64,000 bases of DNA from assembly GCA_030684405.1 (NCBI GenBank), contig JAUXYA010000019.1, positions 1 through 64,000 of the forward strand. The letters run 5' to 3'. This document shows, one piece after another, positions 33,501-42,358 of the stretch. The notes under the pieces were generated by a model, which worked only from the letters and a program-made list of their open reading frames with translations, had not been told where the DNA came from and made no database searches. A program made the position numbers and the translations under genes. Numbering within the stretch: position 1 is the first letter of the stretch; each line of letters starts with the position of its first letter. Source of the stretch: Burkholderiales bacterium (GTDB lineage Bacteria > Pseudomonadota > Gammaproteobacteria > Burkholderiales > SG8-41).

Positions 33501-34337
33501 TTACTTGCTGCGGGTTGCGACCCAGGGCGAAGTCTTGCCGCCGGCGGTCACCGTACCTTCGATACGATCGCCGCTGACCTTGCCGGCGTAACGAGCGGAA
33601 CCAGTGGAGAAGCTGATTTCATCGCCGCGCAGTCGGCCGTTCTGAATGTTCGACAGCTTGCCGCCGCTGTTATGCGAACCCTGCAACATCTGGAATTCCT
33701 GCGCCAGCTTGATCTCTTCGTTTCCGGATTTCCAGACGCCCTCGACTTTCGCCGGCACGATCCACATGTAAGCCGTGCAGTAGCTGGTGCAGTCACCCTT
33801 GGCGGTCTGTGTTTCGTCAGACTTCCAGTCGCCCATCGTGAACGAGTTCGATACCACGCGGGTGCCCGGCGCCATGGCGAGGATTTTCGGACGCAGCTTG
33901 ACGTTGAGCTCGGGCAGCAGGAACAAGGTGATCACCGTCGCCTTCGAGAAATCGGTCTCGAAAATATCGCCGTGGATGAAGGTCACCTTGCCAGCAAGCT
34001 TCTCCTTCGCGGCATTGCGACGCGACAACTCCACCATGTCCGGGTTGTACTCGACGCCGTAGGCGGTGGCGCCGCGGCGCGCAGCAGTGATCACCGTGCG
34101 GCCGTCGCCGGAACCGAGGTCATAGTGAATGTCCTTGGCCGTCAGCTTCGCCATGTCGAGCATGCGGTCGACAAGGCCCTGCGCAGTGGGCACCCAGACC
34201 ACGTCCTTGCCGGACTGGCCAACTTCGGGCACGAACTCGGACTTGGCGGCGGGCTGGGCCTGCGCGATGGCGCCGGCCGCAAATAGGGACAGGGTAAGCG
34301 CCAGCACGATGCGGCGCGAGGTGGTGAATGTGCTCAT
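33501..34337 (-). CDS. Class I SAM-dependent methyltransferase with Sec signal peptide
   Basis: 278 residues. A signal-peptide-like N terminus (RRIVLALTLSLFAAGAIAQA) is followed by a Rossmann methyltransferase core: motif I at about 92-98 (YDLGSGDGRTVITAARR), GVEYNPDM with the ribose-binding Glu, and IHGDIFETDFSKATVITLF. The last 90 residues form an added beta-rich region. Similar small methyltransferases modify lysines. Export is odd because SAM is not known to be made in the periplasm; the N terminus may be a membrane anchor with the catalytic part facing inside. Confidence 0.8.
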   Translation of the reverse strand: MSTFTTSRRIVLALTLSLFAAGAIAQAQPAAKSEFVPEVGQSGKDVVWVPTAQGLVDRMLDMAKLTAKDIHYDLGSGDGRTVITAARRGATAYGVEYNPDMVELSRRNAAKEKLAGKVTFIHGDIFETDFSKATVITLFLLPELNVKLRPKILAMAPGTRVVSNSFTMGDWKSDETQTAKGDCTSYCTAYMWIVPAKVEGVWKSGNEEIKLAQEFQMLQGSHNSGGKLSNIQNGRLRGDEISFSTGSARYAGKVSGDRIEGTVTAGGKTSPWVATRSK

Positions 34338-34932: not shown

Positions 34933-35119
34933 TTAAATCTCGGCCTTCCAGCCATAAGCCTTCGCACAGGCGCTGCCGATCAGCATCTCGCGCCCGCTGA
35001 TGCGATCGGTCAGCCGGAAGGGCTCCACCACCTGCTCATAATTCACCACGGCGTAGGCGCGGGTCCTGTCTGCGCCTCGGAGGCGGCGCTCGAAGCCCCA
35101 GGCGTCAAAGACACACGCC
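34933..35119 (-). pseudogene. Amidohydrolase C-terminal remnant
   Basis: Translated on the minus strand, the last about 60 codons read [19 protein letters not shown]...[18 protein letters not shown]...GSACAKAYGWKAEI-stop. They match the C terminus of the intact amidohydrolase at 41513-42358 over this whole length. The conserved LWGTDW has become LRGADR, and everything upstream of VFDAWGF is gone. It is a decayed paralogue lying next to the sigma-54 activator start. Confidence 0.82.
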
Positions 35120-35195
35120 TTCGACCGAAACTGCTCGCGGCCCGCTCCTCCGGGTGCTGTTACACTGGCAGCGTTGCATCCTGCTTCAGTCTGTC

Positions 35196-36782
35196 ATGCC
35201 GCCCCGGACCGCTCATCAAACACCGATCGACTGGCACCGTCAGGAACTGCTGCTCCTGCGAGAAGTCGTGAAACTCGTCGGCAAAAGCCTTTCACCGGAC
35301 GTCGTCGTCCGCGAAATGCTGCACCTGATGAGCGAGCTTCTCGGTCTTAACCGTGGTCGTCTGATCCTACTGCACCCCGATGCCGGCCCGCATGCCGCGA
35401 GCATCAGGTACGCCTATGGATTGACTGGTGAACAGGTGCGGCAGGGCCACTACATGCTGAACGAAGGCATCACCGGAAAAGTGCTCGCCACCGGCCGGCC
35501 GCTCATCGTTCAGGATGTCGACGCGGAGCCCGCCTTCCTGTTCCGTGCCGTCAGCCGTGCCGAACTGCCGCCGGACACGGTTTCATTTCTTGCGCTGCCA
35601 GTCCTCGTTTCGGGCCAGATCCGCGGCGTGCTTGCCTGCCATCGCATCCGCAACCGCCAGCGCCACCTCAACGATGACCTTTCGATCCTGTCCGTGCTCG
35701 CCACCCTCTGCGGACAGATGCTGCAACTCGATGAAATGGTGCGCGAAAAAACGGAAACGCTGGAAGCGCAGAACGCATTGCTCACGCAGGCATTGGATTC
35801 GCAGACCACGCGATTCGGAATTATCGGCCATTCCCCGGTGTTGCTGCGGGCACTGGGCGAACTTGAGCGGGTCGCGCCGTCGAACGCGACGGTGCTGTTG
35901 CTGGGCGAATCCGGCACCGGCAAGGAACTTTTCGCGCGTGCGCTGCACTTGCTGAGCCCGCGCCGGGAAGCGCCGTTCGTTCGCGTCAATTGCGCGGCGA
36001 TTCCGGACACCCTGTTCGAATCGGAACTCTTCGGCCACGAGAAAGGCGCATTCACCGGCGCACAGTCTGCGCGGCCCGGCCTGTTCGAACAGGCCCAGGG
36101 CGGCACAATCTTCCTCGATGAAATCGGCGAACTGCCCCTATCCCTGCAATCGAAGCTGCTGCGTGCCCTGCAGGAAAACATGATCACAAGGCTTGGGGGC
36201 AAGCGCGAAATCGCGCTCGACGTCCGTGTCGTCGCCGCCACCAACATCGAACTCGGCAGCGAAGCTGCGGCAGGCCGCTTCCGGCAGGACCTTTATTACC
36301 GGCTGAACGTCATTCCGATCCGCATGCCGCCGCTGCGCGAACGACCCGATGACATTCCGCCACTTATCCTCCACCTGCTAAACCGGGCGAACCAGTCCCA
36401 CCAGCGCAATGTGTTTCTGGACACCGCAGTGATGGAGCGACTGCAGCGACATGTCTGGCCGGGAAACATTCGCGAGTTGGGGAACCTTATCGAAAGACTG
36501 GTTCTCCTTGCGCAGGAACCTCGTGTGGACCTGAAAAGTCTCTCGGCACTGTGGCCCGACGCCGCTGATGCACCTCCAGCCGGGAGTTCGCGGTCAGGGG
36601 CGCCCTCGACGCCGGCGGGTTTCGTCCGGAGCCACCACGCCGCCGATGCCTTCGACGCCAGCATGCTGACCGAAGCGCTCAAGGCACATGGCAATCAATC
36701 ACGCGCGGCACAAAGCCTGGGGCTGACGCTACGCCAGTTCAGTTATCGCCTCAAAAAGCTGGGTATCCGCACATCGCGTTGA
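35196..36782 (+). CDS. Sigma-54-dependent activator (GAF-AAA+-Fis)
   Basis: Enhancer-binding protein of the NifA/NorR layout, 528 residues. A GAF sensor domain occupies about 30-175. The AAA+ domain is about 205-440 with Walker A GESGTGKE (237-244), the sigma-54 contact loop GAFTGA (284-289) and Walker B FLDEIGEL (306-313). A C-terminal Fis-type helix-turn-helix includes [20 protein letters not shown]. It should remodel sigma-54 RNA polymerase in response to a ligand of the GAF domain. Directly after its stop come two TTGTCGACA sites and a -24/-12 promoter that drive the next operon. Confidence 0.93.
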
Positions 36783-36784
36783 CA

Positions 36785-36805
36785 TTGTCGACAAATTGTC
36801 GACAT
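36785..36805. promoter_or_regulatory. Upstream activator sites (two TTGTCGACA palindromes)
   Basis: TTGTCGACAA at 36785-36794 and TTGTCGACAT at 36796-36805 are two copies of the palindrome TGTCGACA with centres 11 bp apart, one helical turn. They start 3 bp after the stop codon of the sigma-54 activator and about 80-100 bp before the expected transcription start. The position and spacing fit enhancer sites for the adjacent Fis-type activator. Confidence 0.65.
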
Positions 36806-36936: not shown

Positions 36937-37497
36937 ATGTCCGTTGTCCTGCAATCTGTGCCGAACACCACCGTGACCACGTACCTACGCCCCATCGACC
37001 GTGACGGATTGATGGCCTTTGCCGAGAAAGGCAAGGCCAACCCCAAGGCCCAGGGTACGAACAAGGTCCACACCTTCATGGAAGGCCAATACCGTTCGCT
37101 AAGCCATGTCGGCGATCATAAACCGGTGGTGGTCGACGAACCGTTGCACCTGATGGGCGAAAACACCGCACCCGCCCCAGGTGAAATCGTGCTTTCCGGC
37201 CTCGGCGGCTGCATCGCCGTAGGCATCACTGCGGTAGCGACATGGAAGCAGGTCAAGCTGTCGAAAATCGAAGTATTCATGGAAGCCGATATCGGCAACT
37301 CGGCGGCTTGGGGCGCTGGTGGTGCACTCGACAAGAAACCCGAAGACATGGGATTTCAGGCGATCCGCGTGAAGGTCAACGTCGAGGGCGACGCACCACG
37401 CGAAGTGCTCGAAGAAATCGTCAAACACGCCAACTACTATTCGCCGGTCGCCAATTCGATGCGCAATCCCATTCCGTTTGAAATTTCTCTCGCATAA
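36937..37497 (+). CDS. OsmC-like protein with one cysteine
   Basis: 186-residue member of the OsmC/Ohr fold. The central helix carries GLGGCIAVGITAVATW with Cys92. At the site of the second redox cysteine (HxxxCPVSN in peroxidases) this protein reads HANYYSPVANSM, so Ser169 replaces Cys, and no other Cys exists. A classical thiol peroxidase reaction is therefore unlikely; a thioesterase-like, binding or sulfur-handling role is possible. It is the first gene of the sigma-54 operon. Confidence 0.87.
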   Translation: MSVVLQSVPNTTVTTYLRPIDRDGLMAFAEKGKANPKAQGTNKVHTFMEGQYRSLSHVGDHKPVVVDEPLHLMGENTAPAPGEIVLSGLGGCIAVGITAVATWKQVKLSKIEVFMEADIGNSAAWGAGGALDKKPEDMGFQAIRVKVNVEGDAPREVLEEIVKHANYYSPVANSMRNPIPFEISLA

Positions 37498-39972: not shown

Positions 39973-41349
39973 TCAGGCCCTGCTGATCTTGAACGACTTC
40001 AGATACTGCTCCGGTTGGGTCGGATTGAATTCCCGACCCATGATCATATGCCGGCGCATGTTGGTATCCGGAGCCTTGATGCCGAGTTCGGCCATGCGTT
40101 TACGTGCCTCGGTCGCCAGGAACACCTGCTCGGCAATACGCGTGTAATTGACATCCTCCTTGATGTAGCCCCAGCGCTTCATCTGCGTCAGCATCCAGAC
40201 GGCCATCGATTGCCAGGGGAAGGGATCGAAGTTGATCCGGTTGGGCTCATTTCGCACCTGGCCCAGACCATCGGCAAACTTACCCAACAAAACCTGCTCC
40301 AGAACCGTCAGTGGCTGATTCAGAAAATTCGCCCCCTGGATCGCTTGTGCGACGGCCGGACGGTTCGCCATCTGCGAGCAATGAACCGTGGACGCCACAA
40401 TTGCCCGGAACAGGGCAGCAAAGCTGTTCGGATGTGCCTTGACGAAGCGCTCCGGCACCGCAAACGCGCAGCACGGGTGGTTGTCCCAGATCTCGCTGGT
40501 CAGCATGTGGATGAAGCCAACGCCATCGAATACTGCGCGCTGATTGAAGGGTTCCGCGACAATGAAGCCGTCAATGTTCTCAGCGCGCAGGTTAGCAACC
40601 ATGTCAGGTGGCGCCATGACCCGCAGTTGCACATCCTTGTCGGGGTCGAGACCGTTTTCGGCCAGGTAATAGCGCAGCAGGAAGTTGTGCATTGAGTAAT
40701 CAAAGGGGATGCCGAAGCGCATCCCTTTCCAGGTCTTGGGATCGCGCTTGTCCTTGTGTTTGATATGCAGCGTGATCGCATTGCCATTAACGTTCTCGAT
40801 TGCCGGCATCACCATCGGTGTTGCTGTGGCTCCGAGGCCGAGCGTCATCGCCAGCGGCATTGGAGACAGCATGTGCGAAGCGTCGAATTCGCCTGCGATC
40901 ACCTTGTCGCGCACAACGGCCCAGCCTGCCGTCCGGTTCAGCTCTACGTTCAGCCCGTTTTTGGCGTAGAAACCCAGGGGATCTGCCGCGACGATCGGAG
41001 TCGCACAGGTAATCGGCAGGAAGCCGATCTTCAGATCCTTCTTTTCCACGGGCTTTTGCTCCTGCGCCAGCGCCTGCAGGACAGTCACCGGCAACATGGA
41101 ACTGATAGCAGCCATCGCCGTGGTCCTGCCGACGGCCTTGAGAAAATTGCGGCGCAGGTTGTCCTGGGGAAACAGGGCCTTTACCAGAGCGGCCTCAACA
41201 AACTCGGAGGCCCTTGCCTCGATCTGTGTTTCACTTGCTTCGGACCCTTGAGACGGCACAGGGTGCTCAGCAGCGGAATGATTTCCTCCGCAACTGCATT
41301 TCAGGTTCAGGGGTTGATCCTGATCGTACGGCGAGTAATAACGTCCCAT
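39973..41349 (-). CDS. NrtA/CmpA-like ABC receptor, Tat-exported, with Cys-His-rich N extension
   Basis: 458 residues. The body (about 98-458) is an ABC nitrate/sulfonate/bicarbonate-type receptor (DLKIGFLPITCATPIV, FYAKNGLNVELNRTAGW, GFIVAEPFNQRAV). A Tat motif LRRNFLKAV (Arg66-Arg67) precedes a hydrophobic stretch to about 95. The first 60 residues are unusual for a signal and contain CSCGGNH (Cys18, Cys20, His24), a possible metal-binding site. There is no permease or ATPase gene nearby. GGAGG precedes the ATG at 41349. Convergent with the sigma-54 operon and itself behind a -24/-12 promoter. Confidence 0.88.
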   Translation of the reverse strand: MGRYYSPYDQDQPLNLKCSCGGNHSAAEHPVPSQGSEASETQIEARASEFVEAALVKALFPQDNLRRNFLKAVGRTTAMAAISSMLPVTVLQALAQEQKPVEKKDLKIGFLPITCATPIVAADPLGFYAKNGLNVELNRTAGWAVVRDKVIAGEFDASHMLSPMPLAMTLGLGATATPMVMPAIENVNGNAITLHIKHKDKRDPKTWKGMRFGIPFDYSMHNFLLRYYLAENGLDPDKDVQLRVMAPPDMVANLRAENIDGFIVAEPFNQRAVFDGVGFIHMLTSEIWDNHPCCAFAVPERFVKAHPNSFAALFRAIVASTVHCSQMANRPAVAQAIQGANFLNQPLTVLEQVLLGKFADGLGQVRNEPNRINFDPFPWQSMAVWMLTQMKRWGYIKEDVNYTRIAEQVFLATEARKRMAELGIKAPDTNMRRHMIMGREFNPTQPEQYLKSFKISRA

Positions 41350-41388
41350 GTGCGTAACCTCCGAGCTGATTAAGGTAATACTTAGCAA

Positions 41389-41404
41389 AGCAATACCCGT
41401 GCCC
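41389..41404 (-). promoter_or_regulatory. Second sigma-54 (-24/-12) promoter
   Basis: On the minus strand GGGCACGGGTATTGCT fits TGGCAC-N5-TTGCW with one mismatch at the least conserved T; GG and GC are exactly 10 bp apart. Expected transcription start is near 41378, 29 bp before the ATG of the NrtA-like gene. No TTGTCGACA copy was seen upstream. Confidence 0.72.
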
Positions 41405-41453
41405 GCAGCATTTACCCGCTACTCACCACGACTGCGGGATGCCGGCCCGGAAA

Positions 41454-41485
41454 ACAGAAAAGCCCGGGAATCCGGGCTTTTCTGT
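41454..41485 (-). terminator. Rho-independent terminator of the amidohydrolase gene
   Basis: ACAGAAAAGCCCGG-GAAT-CCGGGCTTTTCTGT is a perfect 14-bp stem with a 4-nt loop, 28 bp past the stop of the gene at 41513. The stem carries T-runs on both strands, so it can work in either direction. It also shields the downstream sigma-54 promoter at 41389 from read-through. Confidence 0.85.
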
Positions 41486-41512
41486 GCTGCTGCGCCAACA
41501 GTGGCCGGGCAA

Positions 41513-42358
41513 CTACCGCGTCACCACCGGCTCCCACTCATAAGCCTTCGCACAGGCGCCGCCCATCAGCATCGCGCGCTCGCTGTCGCTGATGCGATCG
41601 GTCATCCGGAAGGGCTCCACCGCCTGTTCGTAATTGACAACGGCAAACGCACGCGTCCAGTCAGTGCCCCAGAGGCAGCGCTCGAAACCCCAGGCGTCGA
41701 ACACGCGCGCCAGCGGATCCCAGATGTCAGGGAAGGGGTAAGGCTCCTTCGACAGCGTGCAGGCGCCGCTGACCTTGATCACCAGGTTCGGGCGCTGCGC
41801 CAGCTCGAGCACCTTCGGCAGGTCGGCCCAAGGTTCAGCGGCACGCCCCGCGGGCTCATGTGGTTGCAGGATGCCGAGGTGGTCGAGTATGAAGCGCGTC
41901 TCGGGATGGCGGTCGATCAGCGCGGCGCCGGCCTCGATGTTGCCCCAGCACAGGATGTTGACCGGGAAGCCGTGGCGCGCCGCGGCGCGCAGCATGCGGT
42001 CGAGGCCGGGATGGCCAGCGCGGTGTGGGGAGTCGGTTTTCATCAGCGCGCGGATGCCAACCGTGCCCGGCGTCTTTATCCATTCGGCGACGATCTCCTC
42101 CACCGCGGGATCGTCAGGGTCCACTGGTTTAACCAGGCCAAACTTACCGGGATGGGCTTTTTGCACCTCCACGGCGTAACTCGCGTCGTAACCGTACATT
42201 GAGAACGAAGAAATGAATATCGCGCCGTCGACACCGACCTTGTCCATCGCCGCGACCATCTCGTCGCCGGTGGCCGAGGGCGGCCAGTTCGGCACTGAGC
42301 GCCAGGGGCGTTTCGGAGTGTTCGCCTCGTAGGCGTGGATCTGGGAATCGATGATCAT
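41513..42358 (-). CDS. Amidohydrolase family (AMDH2-type) protein
   Basis: TIM-barrel metal hydrolase or decarboxylase, 281 residues. Features: MIIDSQIHAYE at the N terminus (an IHA in place of the usual HxH), RFILDHLGI (about 154-162) with the conserved metal-site His, and WGTDWTRA near 230 with the metal-ligand Asp. The group includes lactonases such as 2-pyrone-4,6-dicarboxylate hydrolase. A decayed copy of its C terminus lies at 34933-35119. Confidence 0.87.
   Translation of the reverse strand: MIIDSQIHAYEANTPKRPWRSVPNWPPSATGDEMVAAMDKVGVDGAIFISSFSMYGYDASYAVEVQKAHPGKFGLVKPVDPDDPAVEEIVAEWIKTPGTVGIRALMKTDSPHRAGHPGLDRMLRAAARHGFPVNILCWGNIEAGAALIDRHPETRFILDHLGILQPHEPAGRAAEPWADLPKVLELAQRPNLVIKVSGACTLSKEPYPFPDIWDPLARVFDAWGFERCLWGTDWTRAFAVVNYEQAVEPFRMTDRISDSERAMLMGGACAKAYEWEPVVTR

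Follow-up and report, generated by a model that had tools for sequence, protein, structure and literature searches.

We believe that GGGCACGGGTATTGCT, an element on the minus strand in front of a substrate-binding receptor gene of this Burkholderiales bacterium, is very probably a real sigma-54 promoter, judging by its sequence and by its recurrence before homologous receptors. The explanation we favor for the whole arrangement, which we regard as just on the probable side, is that the element serves a receptor of the CynA type, that it was imported together with a module of neighboring genes, and that the activator encoded in that module, P0002, would be the most likely one to drive it, by DNA looping. 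The window below means the entire stretch of 64,000 nucleotides that was analysed. These are the features on the receptor's side of the module:

41404..41389, minus strand: -24/-12 (sigma-54) promoter element GGGCACGGGTATTGCT of the receptor gene, predicted from sequence and from same-position elements in homologues; kept in L004
41363..41358, minus strand: ribosome-binding site CGGAGG, from sequence; kept in L004
41455..41484, minus strand: hairpin with A/T-rich arms, from folding; a probable terminator between the amidohydrolase gene and the receptor promoter
39973..41349, minus strand: receptor gene P0001, 458 aa, a substrate-binding protein of the NMT1_2 / NrtA-CmpA-CynA family, from a family search and a tree

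The first-pass annotation had proposed a minus-strand -24/-12 promoter at 41389-41404 with a 10-bp GG-GC spacing, and this is what we find. GGGCACGGGTATTGCT has 10 bases between GG and GC, agrees with the flanking consensus, and lies 40 to 55 bases 5' of the receptor ATG at 41349. The textbook -24/-12 form has T at the first position, where GGGCACGGGTATTGCT has G. Downstream on the minus strand come TTGCTAAGTATTACCTTAATCAGCTCGGAGGTTACGCAC and then the ATG. The annotation was right that the leader would be about 29 nt long, given a transcription start about 12 bases past the GC, but this leader runs to the ATG rather than to the ribosome site, which lies inside it. The hairpin folds at -25.3 kcal/mol (z -4.76) and has a counterpart at the same place in L004, and a scan for the terminator consensus did not call it. 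Since it is terminator-like, the amidohydrolase transcript should stop ahead of the receptor promoter. A sigma-70 promoter for the receptor was also considered and rejected, because a simple scan of 41330..41560 found no sigma-70-like site. The genome itself has one rpoN match over the cut-off, on contig C20.

The idea that GGGCACGGGTATTGCT is a functionless chance match draws on how common such patterns are. Allowing up to 2 mismatches to a loose consensus, the window holds 33 matches against a shuffle mean of 40.08, so the pattern is not enriched and the consensus alone would not convince us. Across the 3.74 Mb genome the strict pattern GGCAYRN4TTGCW has 30 matches and its reversed control 6. 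A good part of the 30 fall within long reading frames and could be accidental. Others lie upstream of a FliD-like gene, two pilin-like genes and a third NrtA-like receptor (named from their translations), which are kinds of genes often controlled by sigma-54, and 2 of the 30 fall in the 4.6 kb cluster considered here. GGGCACGGGTATTGCT itself scores 15.2 of a maximum of 16.9 on a weight matrix made by hand from the textbook consensus and untrained; scores of at least 15.2 are reached at 5/199,910 positions, GGGCACGGGTATTGCT included, on both strands of 100 kb of its own contig. This score, the position of the element, its conservation in L004, the counts among homologues and the difference between embedded and separate receptors described below all contradict a chance origin, which we consider so improbable that we rule it out.

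Two further groups of matches in the same genome deserve mention. The third NrtA-like receptor (C35 282135-283609, 34% identical) has its -24/-12 match 176 bp 5' of its start. At L190, L194 and L211, -24/-12 matches lie 50 to 93 bp 5' of three solute receptors that appear by eye to be TctC/Bug-like.

The annotation had suggested comparing the region in related genomes, and that comparison places an element at the matching position before most homologous receptors. With a threshold of 13.5, picked after same-position elements in homologues had been scored, and a position between -95 and -30 of the ATG, 101/134 distinct homologous receptor rows carry a -24/-12 element. The remaining 33/134 do not, and nine of these are embedded behind cassette genes. 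As a control from the same fetched loci, the element precedes 11/663 other genes, 1/56 ATPase genes and 0/51 permease genes; 4/25 activator genes also pass, so the control rate is not equally low across gene kinds. Receptor starts were set by alignment for the count of 134 rows and by the longest ORF in the control run, hence the lower receptor count there (48/83). The loci are the best 80 of at least 580 from species genomes, plus further ones from relatives. Seven duplicate loci were excluded at the locus level, and the rows L144 (inside L129), L017 (nearly identical to L016) and L086_1272 (a duplicate of L129_3337) were left out of the receptor counts as well. L221, apparently the same contig as L009, is uncounted, and L126 is apparently the same contig as L004. 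It is important to realize that many rows come from close relatives (Limnohabitans, own genus); the counts therefore do not represent independent events, and the P values given here are too small. Separately, a palindrome, TGTAG-N8-CTACA (TGTAGGGCTATCCCTACA at L005:7887-7904), lies within 260 bp before 48/133 receptor rows, with and without a -24/-12 element, against 0.00 in shuffles.

L004 is the only close orthologue found (93%). There GGGCACGGGTATTGCT and the ribosome site are kept and the stretch of about 45 bp between hairpin and element is not, a local footprint that rests on two sequences since there is one such orthologue. Looking for more of them in 74 family genomes at E 1e-200 returned only G000 and G005. 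In the nearest four rows (the window, L004, L009 and L010) the convergent arrangement is common to all and the element is kept in all. L004 and L009 are MAG contigs titled Bordetella parapertussis, with receptors 93% and 75% identical to P0001; the two contigs are strongly unlike each other and their labels look doubtful.

The genes that converge on the receptor are these:

35154..36782, plus strand: sigma-54 activator P0002, with GAF, AAA+ with GAFTGA, and Fis-type HTH; start codon provisional
36785..36804, plus strand: tandem activator-site candidate TTGTCGACAAATTGTCGACA, the only perfect match in the genome
36858..36873, plus strand: -24/-12 promoter TGGCACACCCATTGCT of the OsmC operon
36937..37497, plus strand: OsmC-family protein P0003
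37525..38664, plus strand: acyl-CoA-dehydrogenase-fold flavoprotein P0004
38661..39908, plus strand: P0005, a rubredoxin fused to a NorW-like pyridine nucleotide-disulphide reductase

That the receptor is linked to this convergent operon was an earlier claim that other genomes support. The receptor stands co-directionally behind the same genes in L014, L018, L019, L135, L137, L138, L139 and L223. When a cassette-linked receptor lies within 300 bp behind a gene of the set on the same strand, it has its own -24/-12 element in 0/9 cases, against 23/27 when it is separate (Fisher P 7.6e-6, from related rows), and this difference supports the link. The receptors behind cassette genes in L223, L224 and L226 all score below 13.5. 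The four separate receptors that lack an element are L169_7237, L012_9405, L014_3407 and L130_11577, of which L012_9405 comes after another receptor, and L130_11577 has the flavoprotein gene 646 bp ahead of it. A same-strand gene ends 367 bp upstream of L016 and 432 bp upstream of L012_8001, yet both carry an element of their own; L018_3247 was counted as having one on a weak match at -87. Shared regulation of the receptor and the OsmC operon is in our view fairly probable. A -24/-12 element is also found before receptors that have no cassette, and by itself it therefore does not establish control by P0002.

The module has the borders of an insertion:

41513..42358, minus strand: intact amidohydrolase gene, right-hand border of the module, present in 20/21 genus genomes
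34936..35119, minus strand: truncated remnant of the 3' end of a second amidohydrolase gene, left-hand border, in the same orientation as the intact copy, with which it shares 82% identity over 173 bp (at 34953..35119)

In the same-genus loci L232, L233 and L234 the left flank (33501..34265) adjoins the amidohydrolase gene, with no match to 35.15 to 41.39 kb in between; in L233 the two are about 194 bp apart. The left flank was not seen in the other 17 same-genus module-free loci, within the 1.5 kb compared. P0002 occurs in 2/21 genus genomes. From the empty site, the flanking amidohydrolase copies and the rarity of P0002 we conclude that the block most likely arrived as one, that is, as a single insertion of activator, OsmC protein, flavoprotein, rubredoxin reductase and receptor beside the amidohydrolase gene, with the receptor promoter at its right edge.

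The same event could have left GGGCACGGGTATTGCT as a leftover, severed from its activator sites by the insertion and now of little or no activity; a different promoter, or read-through, would then supply low-level expression of the receptor. The -24 is only about 50 bp from the hairpin, with amidohydrolase coding sequence beyond, and this fits such a leftover. We nevertheless find the idea improbable. L004 retains the element despite divergence of the DNA on the hairpin side, the empty sigma-70 scan offers no other promoter, and the terminator-like hairpin should limit read-through.

The sites of the activator bear on which protein would act. We call a site TTGTNNACAA-like if it matches 7 of 8 letters, and an NtrC-like box is GCAC-N7-GTGC with 7 of 8 letters. 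The annotation reported no activator site nearby, and we agree. In the window and in L004 the 1.5 kb on either side of the receptor ATG contain no TTGTNNACAA-like site, and the perfect TTGTCGACA copies nearest to the receptor promoter are the tandem pair at 36785..36804, about 4.6 kb off. A local TTGTCGACA-type site and a close NtrC box were both sought in these two sequences and are absent, the latter at 7 of 8 letters from the 220 bp upstream of the -24. That the DNA upstream of the receptor promoter is amidohydrolase coding sequence would explain the missing activator site. Beyond the pair at 36785..36804, a search of the genome for a second tandem site gave only two matches, each with 3 mismatches.

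Before osmC, TTGTNNACAA-like sites are found in 15/23 loci with an aligned activator and in 1/11 without. The misses among the 23 are L016, L017, L041, L138, L140, L164, L171 and L172. In L016 and L017 osmC is not the first gene, and the first gene has TTGTNNACAA-like sites (shown for L016); the activators of L171 and L172 have a different recognition helix. L138 and L224 to L227 have neither a TTGTNNACAA-like site nor a -24/-12 element before osmC. As for the receptors, TTGTNNACAA-like sites precede 5/20 whose locus holds an activator (1.0 in shuffles) and 7/81 whose locus holds none (3.2 in shuffles), and the excess linked to the activator is not significant (P 0.12, computed on 5/21 vs 7/81). 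Before the duplicate L086_1272 was removed the counts were 102/135 promoters and, among activator-linked receptors, 5/21 with TTGTNNACAA-like sites and 7/21 with NtrC boxes; with L129_4876 also left out they are 100/133, 4/19 and 6/19.

The own genome has six strong sigma-54 activator domains, P0002 among them. Reading five of them by eye, we take them to be NtrC, a GlrR-like protein, P0002, a PilR-like protein and a PEP-CTERM-type regulator; the sixth (L117) displayed no frame bearing GAFTGA. These identities make P0002 and NtrC the likely candidates. We rank P0002, acting from the distant tandem site, first and NtrC second, and regard the claim that P0002 drives the receptor promoter as evenly balanced.

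The case for NtrC is that the receptor promoter would be a general nitrogen-starvation promoter of a sort that seems usual for this receptor family, with the neighboring operon regulated separately. Within 220 bp upstream of the -24, NtrC-like boxes occur at 53/81 receptors that have no activator in their locus (10.4 in shuffles) and at 6/20 that have one (2.1 in shuffles). The organism's own paralogue of the receptor has two such boxes 20 bp apart, and one protein of the genome reads as NtrC. The cited portion of a study of Burkholderia cenocepacia includes a nitrate-ABC binding protein in the NtrC regulon list (PMC5491218). At P0001 itself these signs fade: the 220 bp upstream of the -24 hold no 7 of 8 box in the window or in L004, and the weak 6 of 8 match there sits in amidohydrolase coding sequence in both. 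The window does have a 7 of 8 box 506 bp 5' of the receptor ATG, but L004 is without it. We consider control by NtrC possible and doubtful.

If control by P0002 is right, the inserted module would bring its own sigma-54 activator along with the OsmC protein, flavoprotein, rubredoxin reductase and receptor. Sigma-54 RNA polymerase would bind at 41404..41389, and P0002 on the tandem TTGTCGACAA site at 36785..36804 would loop about 4.6 kb to the receptor promoter. Transcription would start on a signal to the activator, perhaps a cyano compound, and the orphan receptor P0001 would pair up with the CynBD-like permease and ATPase, whose genes lie about 41 kb away. To our knowledge natural sigma-54 activation at such a distance is rare. 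Sigma-54 activation over 6000 bp has been reported, at lower efficiency, according to the passage of a review cited here (PMC7408454).

The annotation called the receptor NrtA-like. This is right as a family (NMT1_2 / NrtA-CmpA), but the setting suggests cyanate, which serves as a nitrogen source, and hence a CynA type, rather than nitrate. P0001 has an RRNFLK stretch that by eye resembles a twin-arginine signal. In a FastTree phylogeny it falls in a clade of 21 rows of second receptors (support 99), often in tandem with a first receptor or beside the cassette; L005 to L008, L011, L012 and L013 have the tandem arrangement. Of the loci compared (the best 80 of at least 580, with some contigs ending early), 75/80 hold permease and ATPase genes and 67/80 cyanase as well. 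The permease, ATPase and cyanase genes are not beside P0001. They follow the paralogue, 58% identical, at C5 82321-83682, where the last is a protein reading as cyanase, and Acetobacter and Marinobacter plasmid records call its homologue cyanase, cynS. A receptor match of the paralogue's kind is present in 19/21 genus genomes. Our best guess is that P0001 is a CynA-type receptor of the cyanate family and that cyanate may be its ligand, a reading taken from gene setting.

A sigma-54 promoter before such a receptor is of a known kind, as two precedents indicate, the B. cenocepacia regulon and Pseudomonas pseudoalcaligenes CECT5344. In the cited part of the work on CECT5344, a putative sigma-54 promoter lies before cynA, and cynABDS is induced by cyanate, repressed by ammonium and requires CynF, a Fis-type sigma-54 activator (PMC6627978). 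Our module resembles cynFABDS in having a Fis-type sigma-54 activator gene with a cyanate-type receptor gene and a putative sigma-54 promoter; the likeness is one of arrangement rather than of CynF sequence. In cynFABDS the receptor gene is the first of a cynABDS operon that diverges from cynF, whereas P0001 is an orphan, convergent with the OsmC-flavoprotein-rubredoxin reductase operon, and the vicinity of its promoter yielded no activator site. The organism's own cynABDS-like operon (C5 79989-83682) shares with P0001 the related receptor and a promoter element, TGGCACGCTTGCTGCA at -55 from the ATG, and differs in the permease, ATPase and cyanase-like genes that follow and in its two NtrC-like boxes.

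The nitrate and bicarbonate receptors NrtA and CmpA (2g29, 2i48) are of the same family as P0001 by sequence rather than by binding residues, and unlike them, homologues of P0001 are set beside cyanase. P0002 shares its GAF, AAA+ and Fis-type HTH domains with activators of the NifA/NorR type, and its best NCBIfam matches, NifA (444.8 of 528.85 bits) and NorR (337.8 of 476 bits), fall under the curated cut-offs. P0005 likewise matches NorW below the cut-off (209.8 of 392 bits), and unlike norVW the module has no flavorubredoxin gene. A Thioalkalivibrio thiocyanate dehydrogenase cluster has a sigma-54 Fis regulator and ABC-transporter genes, with OsmC, rubredoxin and acyl-CoA dehydrogenase unmentioned in the portion cited (PMC5744179). 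The promoter type is thus already known, and the surrounding module was not found described in the open-access literature.

The cassette itself recurs widely. In Acetobacter ascendens the genes for OsmC, flavoprotein, rubredoxin, receptor, permease, ATPase and cynS follow one another on one strand, an order also seen in L139 and L223. Of 398 genomes sampled from the phylum, 15 besides our own have the flavoprotein at E 1e-60; within 19 kb, at the score thresholds chosen, it is accompanied by OsmC in 13, cyanase in 8 and rhodanese in 9. Across several classes, flavoproteins of the P0004 type occur with OsmC close to cyanase, often together with rhodanese. The open-access literature yielded no description of an OsmC-flavoprotein-rubredoxin reductase cassette with cyanase, and OsmC and cyanase are unrelated in the part of one paper that we cite (PMC5596200). 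The Moraxella osloensis plasmid of L137 has the cassette without an OsmC match, with transposase and integrase genes nearby.

The structure model of P0004 (pLDDT 87.3) matches acyl-CoA dehydrogenases, the first row with Z 42.3, rmsd 2.5 and 358 aligned residues, and its Foldseek rows include 3-sulfinopropionyl-CoA desulfinase; these fold matches do not decide between dehydrogenase, desulfinase and oxygenase. Acyl-CoA dehydrogenases usually have their catalytic glutamate in a YEGT motif. In P0004 and its homologues (15 aligned sequences, compared by eye rather than by superposition) the place of this glutamate seems to be taken by an invariant TP.

We believe two things follow for the biology of these bacteria. 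The first is an argument for regulon membership: a cassette-linked receptor has its own -24/-12 element when it stands apart and none when it sits behind the cassette genes. The second concerns Alpha-, Beta- and Gammaproteobacteria, in which an uncharacterised OsmC-flavoprotein-rubredoxin reductase(-rhodanese) cassette is tied to cyanate transport and cyanase. A cyanide monooxygenase that yields cyanate has been proposed rather than shown, in the part of the literature cited here (PMC11049912). As a speculation that we think unlikely to hold in full, receptor and cassette may together make up a mobile sigma-54 regulon for a so far undescribed route by which a cyano compound (thiocyanate, cyanide or an organic one) becomes the cyanate that cyanase uses. 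In this reading the flavoprotein would be an oxygenase or a desulfurising enzyme, an idea beside which we note rhodanese as a frequent cassette partner. The orphan receptor would give the CynBD-like transporter a second specificity, and both opposed promoters, 4.6 kb from each other, would depend on a single tandem enhancer. The cassette is a testable candidate for the step ahead of cyanate.
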